A stretch of DNA of 64,000 bases. Source: Paenibacillus sonchi (GTDB taxonomy: Bacteria; Bacillota; Bacilli; Paenibacillales; Paenibacillaceae). Where the stretch lies: NCBI RefSeq assembly GCF_016772475.1, contig NZ_CP068595.1, forward strand, positions 6,262,001 through 6,326,000, in the 5' to 3' direction. Numbering within the stretch: position 1 is the stretch's first letter; every line of letters starts with the position of its first letter. The notes below the pieces were generated by a model. That model was not told the origin of the DNA, did no database searches, and saw only the letters and a list, made by a program, of their open reading frames with translations. The position numbers were made by a program, and so were the translations under genes. Positions 42,694-46,040 of the stretch are shown one piece after another.

Positions 42694-42767
42694 TCGGAGT
42701 AACAGGATTTGAACCTGCGACCTCACCCACCCCAAGGGTGCGCGCTACCAGGCTGCGCTATACCCCG
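42694..42767 (-). tRNA. tRNA-Pro (GGG)
   Basis: A 74-base cloverleaf on the minus strand. The acceptor stem is CGGGGTA / TACTCCG (one G-U pair), the D arm is GCGCAGCCTGGTAGCGC, the anticodon arm CACCC-TTGGGGT-GGGTG has anticodon GGG, and the T arm contains GGTTCAAATCC. The discriminator is A and no CCA is encoded. It lies in the accessory block between rplS and trmD. Confidence 0.95.
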
Positions 42768-43870: not shown

Positions 43871-43906
43871 TTTTCGAACCCTTGACGAATTTTGGAGCGT
43901 GATCTA

Positions 43907-44476
43907 TTGTTTGTATTCATCGTAGAAATCATTAAAACAACCATTCAATTTATGGCCGATTTATTATCCGGGGAGCTGCCGGGATACTTCTACATCTGGT
44001 GTGGTGTGTTTGTGGTCTATGCGTTCATCTATGCCTGCCTGGAGATACGGACAAAGCTGACTGCTCCCAAATTGGCAGAAAGCTTCTTTCTTGAGTGTGT
44101 TTCACATCTTGCAGGCTGGATTATCGGTATCCTGGTGGCACGGGCATCTGTATACCTCATAGAGGATGGAATTTCTCAACACCACAAGCTTGCTCTCTAT
44201 AAAATAGGCTTGCTGCTGCTGATTTCATATGATTTCACTGCGATCTTTTCGGGCCTCACTAACAGGCCTTTTGCCCAGCGGAATATTGCTGAAAGAAGCG
44301 CCTTTATTGTTGGTATGGCCGCGACATATTTATTATTTATGTTGTGCAGAGATTCCATTCTGCAAGGACTTATCCTTTCGCAGACTTATGTCGTTACCTT
44401 GTCCATCCTCAGCGGTATTTTTGCACTTTTGTACAAAATCTCTTTGAGATCTGCTGAGGGGCCCAAAAATTCCTAA
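43907..44476 (+). CDS. Multi-pass membrane protein of unknown function
   Basis: About 189 residues from a TTG at 43907 (GGAG about 9 bases upstream; an upstream TTG at 43892 would include the RBS). Hydrophobic segments fall at roughly 5-20, 25-45, 65-85, 100-125 and 135-175. No recognised motif. It follows the AraC gene closely, so the regulator may control it. Confidence 0.6.
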   Translation: MFVFIVEIIKTTIQFMADLLSGELPGYFYIWCGVFVVYAFIYACLEIRTKLTAPKLAESFFLECVSHLAGWIIGILVARASVYLIEDGISQHHKLALYKIGLLLLISYDFTAIFSGLTNRPFAQRNIAERSAFIVGMAATYLLFMLCRDSILQGLILSQTYVVTLSILSGIFALLYKISLRSAEGPKNS

Positions 44477-44539
44477 CACTAAAACTACTTTTCCTTAAAA
44501 TTTATGGTTTTTTTGCTGTAGCTATGCTATACTCTTGGC

Positions 44540-44695
44540 ACAAGGAAAGGAGGTGCGTTCACATCAATCATGACATGTTGAACGTATCCCTTACCCGGAC
44601 CAACGGCTGAAATATTAGCCCTGGTGGCGCGGGATACGGATCAAATTTTTAATTAGCGCCTCGGGTAGAGAGACCGTCTTCGGACGGTCTTTTTT
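44540..44695 (+). ncRNA. Candidate structured RNA with terminator
   Basis: A probable transcript: extended -10 TGCTATACT at 44525-44533, then about 155 bases ending in the perfect hairpin AGACCGTC-TTCG-GACGGTCT (44671-44690) plus T5. Between them are stem-loop pairs GTTCA/TTGAAC (44558-44582), GTATCCC/GGGATAC (44584-44637) enclosing ACCA-GGCT/AGCC-TGGT, and a possible alternative pairing GGCGC (44626-44630) with GCGCC (44656-44660). AAAGGAGGTG at 44547 looks like an SD but is followed by only very short frames. No gene lies downstream on this strand. It may be a regulatory RNA or a cis leader; I do not recognise the family. Confidence 0.55.
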
Positions 44696-44725
44696 ATTAT
44701 CCAGGAATTCAGCCTGATCTGTCAA

Positions 44726-44769
44726 AAAACCACTACTTCAGCTTCCGGGCCGCTGAGGCAGTGGTTTTT
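44726..44769 (-). terminator. Terminator for the small-ORF cluster
   Basis: Arms AAAACCACT and AGTGGTTTT with an inner TCAGC/GCTGA pair. On the minus strand a T6 run follows, ending the tiny-ORF transcript. It could also act on the plus strand. Confidence 0.7.
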
Positions 44770-44788
44770 CGTTCATACTATATCGGTC

Positions 44789-44905
44789 TTATGATTTACG
44801 ATTGGTATAAAAATCAATAATATCATTTACAGTGCGGAGCGGCTCCGCTTCCTTGTGGACAGTGTCCACGTTTGGCTTGAGTTCTTCACGCGTATTCGTA
44901 GTCAC
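44789..44905 (-). CDS. Tiny ORF 3 (38 residues) of unknown function
   Basis: GTG at 44905, stop TAA at 44789. The product MTTNTREELKPNVDTVHK...NDIIDFYTNRKS is charged and predicted soluble. AAAGGAA lies about 9 bases upstream, and the GTG shares one base with the stop of the upstream ORF. A terminator follows within 20 bases. Coding status is likely but unproven. Confidence 0.6.
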   Translation of the reverse strand: MTTNTREELKPNVDTVHKEAEPLRTVNDIIDFYTNRKS

Positions 44906-45179: not shown

Positions 45180-46040
45180 CTACATTCTATTGCTGCCTTG
45201 TTCTTTCAGGCGTTTGAGGGCCGCTTTATCCTTTGCCGTTAGTTCAACTGTCTCCAGCAGATCCGGCCGGCGTTCCAGCGTCCGCTGCAGGGCCTGCTCC
45301 CGCCGCCACACCTCGATGTTGGCGTGATGTCCGCTGAGCAGTATATCCGGCACCTTCCAGCCGCGGAATTCCGCCGGACGGGTATAATGCGGATACTCCA
45401 GCAGACCTGTGCTGAATGAATCCGTCACCGCAGAGGTCTCATTCCCCAGTGCCCCAGCCTGCAGCCGCACAATCGAGTCAATGACCGTCAGCGCAGGCAG
45501 CTCGCCCCCCGTCAGAACGTAATCCCCAATAGACAGCTCATCGGTCACCAAATGCTCCCGGATCCGCTCATCATAACCTTCATAATGGCCGCAGATAAAG
45601 ATCAGATGCTCTTCCTGTGCCAATTCCTCGGCAATCTGCTGATTATAGGTCCGGCCTTGAGGGCACATCAGAATGATGCGCGGCTTTCCCTGGGCGGTAC
45701 TTTCCCGGTTATACTCAGCAGCTTCTCCATCATCGTGTATGATTTGCACATTATCCGCTTCACCGACCTGTTCTCCTTCCGATCTAGGCAGCTCCAGATT
45801 TCCGGAAGCGGTGAGCACATGCTCCACTGCGGCAAAGATAGGGTCAGGCTTCAGCACCATTCCCCCGCCGCCGCCATAAGGCGTATCATCCACACTATTG
45901 TGCTTATTCCCTGAGAAGTCGCGGAAATTGACCGTGTTCAGCGAGACAATGCCTTTTTCACGGGCCTTGCCAAGTATACTTGTGCTGAATACGCCCTCAC
46001 ACATCTCCGGAAAAAGCGTCAGCACATCAATCCGCATCAT
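45180..46040 (-). CDS. trmD: tRNA (guanine-N1)-methyltransferase TrmD
   Basis: TrmD makes m1G37 in tRNA using SAM. The knot-forming motifs are present: [32 protein letters not shown], and [26 protein letters not shown]. At 286 residues it is about 40 longer than usual, because of an acidic Asn/Glu/Asp-rich insertion at about residues 78-117 between the AAVEHVL helix and the [11 protein letters not shown] strand. It overlaps the rimM stop by 4 bases. Confidence 0.95.

Follow-up and report, generated by a model that had tools for sequence, protein, structure and literature searches.

Between a DUF5823 gene on one side and a possible small ORF with trmD on the other, the genome of Paenibacillus sonchi carries a stretch that was originally predicted to be a new structured RNA, either a riboswitch or attenuator that had lost its gene or a stand-alone small RNA. 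Which of the two it is, and how such an RNA could work, is the question raised by this locus. The window, that is, the whole stretch of DNA analysed, is 64,000 nt long, and the features in it that bear on this question are listed below.

43892-44476 (+): DUF5823 gene (Pfam name), flanking the RNA stretch
44525-44695 (+): predicted RNA gene as a whole, with an extended −10, an RNA of about 155 nt and a UUCG terminator
44525-44533 (+): extended −10 promoter element TGCTATACT, assigned from the sequence; predicted RNA start near 44540
44545-44555 (+): GAAAGGAGGTG, nearly invariant extended Shine-Dalgarno (SD) sequence, 11-nt complement of the organism's own 16S 3′ tail
44546-44555 (+): AAAGGAGGTG, the SD-like sequence named in the original prediction
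44557-44583 (+): hairpin H1 (44557-44564 with 44575-44583)
44563-44610 (+): mini-ORF, AUC start, 15 codons plus stop
44584-44590 (+): pseudoknot strand 1, GUAUCCC, pairing with 44631-44637
44592-44597 (+): stem P2, 5′ strand, pairing with 44662-44667
44599-44625 (+): hairpin P3 (44599-44602 with 44622-44625, plus an inner GGCT/AGCC)
44626-44660 (+): hairpin P4, GGCGC/GCGCC (44626-44630 with 44656-44660), nearly invariant
44631-44637 (+): pseudoknot strand 2, GGGAUAC, within the P4 loop
44662-44667 (+): stem P2, 3′ strand, pairing with 44592-44597
44672-44695 (+): intrinsic terminator GACCGTC-TTCG-GACGGTC-TTTTTT, assigned from the sequence; RNA 3′ end
45180-46040 (−): trmD (Pfam name), running towards the RNA stretch

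Locus, distribution and gene boundaries

The elements first named for this stretch, namely the extended −10 (TGCTATACT), the SD-like AAAGGAGGTG, the ACCA..GGCT/AGCC..TGGT arm, the GGCGC/GCGCC pairing and the strong UUCG terminator, are all present on the + strand at the positions given above. An Rfam 15 covariance-model search of the stretch yielded nothing at or above the gathering score, and a permissive setting gave just five hits with E of 1 to 5.3, all under that score. The sole gathering-score Rfam hit in the whole window is a tRNA gene at 42694-42767 (−). The small ORF between trmD and the RNA is a 38-codon frame at 44789-44905 (−), convergent with the RNA, which has a GTG start, reads VTTNTREELKPNVDTVHKEAEPLRTVNDIIDFYTNRKS and has no Pfam match; it is possibly an unannotated small protein gene, and a hairpin with T-rich flanks lies by it near 44727-44775.

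DNA searches found a match in 23 of 60 relatives (in G014 to the terminator only, in G053 partial) and, within the genus, in 57 of 100 genomes with one match each, G014 being matched in the terminator only and G070 in the 3′ two thirds only. A covariance model, R1, detected the RNA in 6 of 19 genera and in 105 of 295 family genomes, one of which, G323, has a degenerate copy. A second model, R2, built from 41 relatives without the loci L055 and L101, hit 103 of 296 genomes of the order, two of them from another family, and 29 of 398 genomes of the class, all within the family of the window (Paenibacillaceae), under strict filters that could miss weak relatives. A pattern scan of genomes returned 97 stretches, and the matches listed (80) belong to Paenibacillus, Saccharibacillus and Cohnella, with one record named Bacillus sp. 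FJAT-27264. A mobile origin was considered and rejected: the window stretch has no match in the plasmids and phages searched, and the viral contigs contain no exact match to the pattern. In two degenerate copies, L055 (in G070) and L101 (in G323), the promoter/SD part is lost or mutated and the 3′ half and terminator are kept; a pattern search that tolerated two mismatches at most failed to find another 5′ part in these genomes. Since 43 of the 100 genus genomes have no match and the SD region is lost in L055 and L101, the RNA is dispensable in nature. On sequence evidence it is a conserved, self-contained gene, about 155 nt long, that Paenibacillus shares with relatives.

The surroundings of this gene change from clade to clade. 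A trmD match lies near 43 distinct loci, including all 20 from one group of window-genus genomes, and at L160 and L203 the RNA is found on the opposite side of the same gene group, again with trmD matched. In other clades trmD is not found in the roughly 4 kb fetched on each side, and at 18 loci the flanking genes bear no relation to each other from clade to clade. The boundaries of the gene are more constant. The motif TGnTAnnnT lies close to the predicted start of the RNA for 71 of the 82 relatives, against 2 of 82 shuffles, and the remaining 11 relatives (9 distinct sequences) have TATACT there. A terminator-like hairpin follows within 110 nt in 80 of the 82, against 4 of 82 shuffles, none having been found for L187 and L174; the sequence of this hairpin varies in some clades, and its distance varies too. 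A riboswitch or ribosome-mediated attenuator whose gene has been lost would account for an anatomy of leader ORF, alternative pairings and terminator. This half of the original prediction is highly improbable: the neighbouring genes differ between clades, so that the 5′ position next to one conserved regulated gene that marks a riboswitch or cis attenuator is not found; the terminators differ in sequence in some clades and in distance; and inspection of the fold of the stretch and of the relatives revealed no conserved antiterminator or other pairing partner for the terminator. The different neighbourhoods, together with the RNA's own predicted promoter and intrinsic terminator, favour the other half, a small RNA that stands alone. 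The terminator most likely ends the RNA rather than serving as a switch for a lost gene, and the locus almost certainly encodes a stand-alone structured RNA.

Fold and pseudoknot

The stretch has a folding energy of −67.1 kcal/mol, compared with −44.8 ± 4.0 kcal/mol for shuffles (z −5.6), and none of 200 shuffles is as stable. The opposite strand also folds better than shuffles (z −4.7), as the many inverted repeats here would lead one to expect; it was rejected as the functional strand, the promoter, SD, U-run and ORF all reading on the + strand. Cores were collected with a regular expression that demanded AAGGAGGTG, AT after [TCG][CA]A[CT] and an inner ATG, and that skipped cores with N. This expression missed 21 of 248 loci, among them the degenerate L055 and L101, the terminator-only hits L023 and L024, and some good copies. 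It yielded 114 distinct cores, of which 70 remained after filtering at 96.5% identity. These 70 and 12 loci that the expression had missed make up the alignment A8 of 82 relatives (77 distinct), which does not include L055 and L101; a second, weak match in L196 (E 0.00085) fell outside the E-value limit.

In A8, the structure consisting of H1, the pseudoknot, P2, P3 and P4 is paired in 95.7% of cells, a count that leans towards the model structure to which the alignment was fitted, except for the pseudoknot, which is absent from the model; slid control structures are paired in 27-46% of cells. Cells with two-sided changes number 99, compared with 33.7 in shuffles (0 of 500 reach 99), and pairs with two-sided changes number 7, compared with 4.3 (4 of 500 reach it), although counts from related rows overstate independence. 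Of the five measures, that of further pair types fails to exceed the shuffles, 62 of 500 reaching the observed value. The same test on the 19 first-found relatives gave the same picture. Covariation among relatives and the lack of an Rfam match thus both uphold the claim of a new structured RNA.

The individual elements differ in how they are supported. P2 is paired in 98.1% of cells and has two pairs with two-sided changes. The four outer pairs of P3 are paired in 99.4% of cells, and all four show two-sided changes. P4 is paired in 99.7% of cells and hardly varies; covariation is absent and therefore cannot judge its pairing. H1 occurs in two pairing registers, GUUCACAU or GUCAACAU with AUGUUGAAC, the second register taking the form of GTCAACAT with ATGTTGAAC in other clades, and for this reason 42 of 77 rows fail two H1 pairs as written. 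GUAUCCC and GGGAUAC are paired in every row, in 100% of cells. One pair alone of this helix, 49-127 of A8, changes on both sides: it is UA in 61, CG in 14 and UG in 2 of the 77 distinct rows, with at least 6 changes on the tree. The original prediction had taken GTATCCC (44584-44590) and GGGATAC (44631-44637) for the outermost of a set of nested stems. The strands are there, but in the conserved fold they enclose nothing and form a pseudoknot instead, crossing an ACCCG/CGGGU stem that was absent from the first list of pairings. The predicted fold, which is well supported, begins with H1 and continues with P2 enclosing P3 and P4, and the pseudoknot, which very probably exists, joins the strand 5′ of P2 to the P4 loop.

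A putative mini-ORF with a non-AUG start and a possible switch

The SD-like sequence ranks among the most conserved parts of the RNA. GAAAGGAGGTG is found in 81 of the 82 rows of A8 and, among 57 model hits selected without regard to this motif, in 54, the others being one with AAGGAGGTG and the two degenerate copies L055 and L101. The nearly invariant GAAAGGAGGUG is complementary to the organism's own 16S rRNA 3′ tail over 11 nt, and the computed energy of this SD/16S duplex is −18.9 kcal/mol. A leader peptide or SD-like signal had been suspected near the 5′ end, and behind the conserved SD there is indeed a leader-peptide-like frame, ATC AAT CAT GAC ATG TTG AAC GTA TCC CTT ACC CGG ACC AAC GGC TGA, with its AUC 9 nt after GGAGG. 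In A8 the start codon at this distance (8 nt in three rows) is AUU in 43, AUC in 37 and AUA in 2 of 82 rows and never AUG. The 114 distinct cores, for which the expression left the third base of codon 1 free and demanded no stop, give AUU 52, AUC 54, AUA 8 and AUG 0.

The frame is closed by an in-frame stop after 15, 16 or 17 codons in all 82 rows (TAA 67, TGA 13, TAG 2); when the two free loops were shuffled, such a frame was kept in 13% of cases on average and in 23% at most. The other two frames were rejected as coding: frame +1 runs into a stop after 5 codons in 80 of the 82 rows, and in 78 rows frame +2 is closed within 3 codons. A three-codon frame, ATG-nnn-TGY-TGA, was also set aside, being probably a by-product of H1 pairing. 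The number of codons has changed at least 10 times on the tree with the frame kept. Counted from the inner AUG, the spacing to P4 follows no rule of three (remainders 43, 21 and 18 of 82), which indicates that the reading frame is maintained as far as the stop and not beyond. At codon 1, the third base has changed at least 6 times, never to G, and the positions of codon 2 have changed 11-19 times; the third base of codon 3 shows just 4 changes, and the slow first codon is therefore not unique. The stop of the mini-ORF sits in the P3 loop region, and the stops of the relatives likewise lie in a hairpin loop, where TGA and TAG occur besides TAA; part of the apparent stop signal could come from a conserved CUAA-like loop. 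The predicted frame is well supported, and it is likely to be translated in cells.

If it is translated, the product need not be the purpose. A peptide of 15-17 residues could act as a signal or regulator, the RNA being simply its mRNA, and the frame is indeed conserved, with codons 5-12 giving MLN[VA]S[LF]T[RQ] in most sequences. These codons lie largely in paired strands, however, and RNA pairing explains their conservation. Codons 13-17 vary, and in codons 2-4 the changes at positions 1, 2 and 3 sum to 40, 39 and 34, about equal numbers that speak against visible selection on the peptide there. Inspection by eye also found no export signal or toxin-like hydrophobic stretch, and the peptide is decidedly improbable as the product. 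A small RNA that base-pairs in trans, whether dual-function or not, is a less improbable alternative but still an unlikely one. Segments such as GAAAGGAGGUG or GGCGCGGGAUACGG would act on target RNAs, with the ORF secondary, and this would suit a stand-alone gene with a terminator and the near-invariance of P4 and of the 5′ side of the P4 loop, which goes beyond what pairing alone needs. It would also suit the different genome places, which leave no common cis target. Base pairing would have no use for a conserved frame and stop, and the SD segment is already accounted for as a complement of 16S rRNA.

The start site of this mini-ORF resembles that of infC. In six family genomes (G000 and five others; L251-L256), infC appears to begin with AUU at a 9-nt spacing behind GGAGGTGG, except that the genome of the window, one of the six, has AUC, or AUU three bases earlier; these infC starts were assigned from the SD, the frame and known infC starts. 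In a Staphylococcus aureus study, infC (AUA), ccpN and cvfC1 are described as having an extended SD and conserved AUA/AUU starts that keep initiation low, which its authors link to IF3 (PMC13009471). An extended SD, an AUH start at about 9 nt and the exclusion of AUG are all found in the RNA. One could suppose that the RNA imitates the infC start, as a decoy for 30S subunits or as a regulator of infC, and titrates 30S subunits, IF3 or another factor. GGAGGTG, the 9-nt spacing and the AUH start are as at infC, the SD duplex is very stable, and some of the RNAs (ATTAGTAATCACATG) resemble the start of infC in a different species (L254, ATTAGTAAAGATCACATG). Within one genome, however, the RNA and infC have little in common apart from SD and start codon, as in the genome of the window (RNA ATCAATCATGACATG, infC ATCAGTAAGGAACATATG) or in that of L254, where the RNA reads ATTTCTAATGACATG. 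Model R2 finds no relation to the six infC regions, with a best E of 0.31 even with filters off, and a pure decoy would not need an ORF. We regard a decoy or infC regulator of this kind as quite improbable. The L20 leader was not among the Rfam hits of the window stretch, and the six infC regions themselves also gave no Rfam hit. In L251, a hairpin upstream of infC looks like the pseudoknot strands, a resemblance that the model search did not support.

Besides infC, a second, divergent IF3 gene was observed at G000:C1:1816013-1816213 and in other family genomes. By a hand count over 295 genomes, two IF3_N genes are present in 105 of 105 RNA-bearing genomes and in 154 of 190 others; 36 of the 190 RNA-less genomes have one IF3_N gene, 23 of these 36 falling in one RNA-less genus (g34). 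A link between the RNA and the second IF3 gene was dropped as confounded, since with 23 of the 36 coming from g34, ancestry explains the counts as well.

Alternative pairing, part of the original prediction, is supported. GUAUCCC can pair either with GGGAUAC in the pseudoknot or with AGGAGGUG in an extended H1. When the RNA sequence of this locus was folded without its terminator, the pairing probability of the SD rose to as much as 1.0 in the free fold and was at most 0.07 with the pseudoknot strands withheld. The two states come to −45.9 kcal/mol and to about −33.6 kcal/mol plus −9.5 kcal/mol for the helix, within a few kcal/mol of each other by a crude sum that ignores loop costs. No SD-hiding pair departs from standard pairing in more than one of the 77 distinct rows, leaving aside 2 rows gapped at one pair. 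With an SD strand that never varies, the H1 extension has no pair changed on both sides, and the shuffle control is uninformative for it (500 of 500 reach it). Folding and compatibility suggest that the SD would be hidden in this half of the switch, and a switch between SD and pseudoknot is rather probable as a whole.

A knotted fold together with a tiny frame and an unusual start indicates that the RNA probably works by being translated. Our main reading, to which we give a probability of about 0.55, is that this is a free-standing Paenibacillaceae gene whose RNA functions through its own translation, which would begin at a weak start and be gated by the pseudoknot/SD switch. In the OFF fold, GUAUCCC would pair with AGGAGGUG and hide the SD; in the ON fold, it would pair with GGGAUAC and free the SD, to which 30S subunits would dock over its long complementarity. 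The AUH codon would then be accepted weakly, in a manner that may depend on IF3 and the status of the ribosome by analogy with infC. Counting from the A of AUC, the pseudoknot starts 22 nt into the reading frame, close to where the 30S footprint usually ends when a ribosome occupies the start codon. P3 would be covered once a ribosome reached the stop, and elongation to this stop would break the pseudoknot, P2 and P3. That the act of translation rather than the peptide is the output is somewhat better than an even chance. This output would lie in the shape, stability or free surfaces of the RNA or in 30S occupancy, with RNA stability, an exposed near-invariant P4/GGGAUAC surface and the holding of 30S subunits as candidates. 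IF3 or initiation status as the signal is a tentative suggestion by analogy, with the odds against it. The still more specific idea of a free-standing sensor of translation-initiation status, with translation itself and not the peptide as its signal, is doubtful. In such a sensor, 30S subunits would load via the 11-bp SD helix and IF3 would veto the AUH codon; relaxed discrimination would let the ribosome run through the mini-ORF, break the pseudoknot and change the activity of the RNA.

Relation to known systems

Searches of the open-licence literature, directed at small and structured RNAs in Paenibacillus and at non-canonical leader ORFs, turned up no account of this RNA. RNA-seq of P. riograndensis yielded 27 intergenic small RNAs, three of which were given known names (PMC5670726), and one of the 27 could be the RNA described here. 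The dual-function SR1 of B. subtilis resembles our small RNA in carrying a short ORF; SR1 makes a functional peptide and base-pairs with mRNA, whereas in our RNA the peptide is not conserved outside paired strands and the start is never AUG.

Attenuators with a uORF or leader peptide are translation-controlled leaders in which translation of a short ORF refolds the RNA and the fold leaves the SD hidden or free. The RNA likewise has a short ORF whose translation would refold it, and an SD that would be hidden or free. Unlike these leaders, it has no downstream gene, and no choice between terminator and antiterminator was seen.

The closest likeness in start-site anatomy is to infC, with its long SD, 9-nt spacing and AUU or AUC. 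Unlike infC, which encodes a protein, the RNA has an ORF of 15-17 codons without a visibly selected peptide, and this ORF is placed on a stand-alone RNA and inside a pseudoknotted fold. Judged by its letters, the RNA has an infC-type start site without being an infC leader. Even without the proposed mechanism, it represents a pseudoknotted RNA family that is absent from Rfam 15 and has a well-supported fold. If the main reading is true, it would be a small RNA through which bacteria monitor translation initiation, by way of a start codon that is poor on purpose and preserved across a bacterial family. Start-codon control of the infC type would then no longer be confined to protein genes but would include a stand-alone RNA with a peptide of no consequence.
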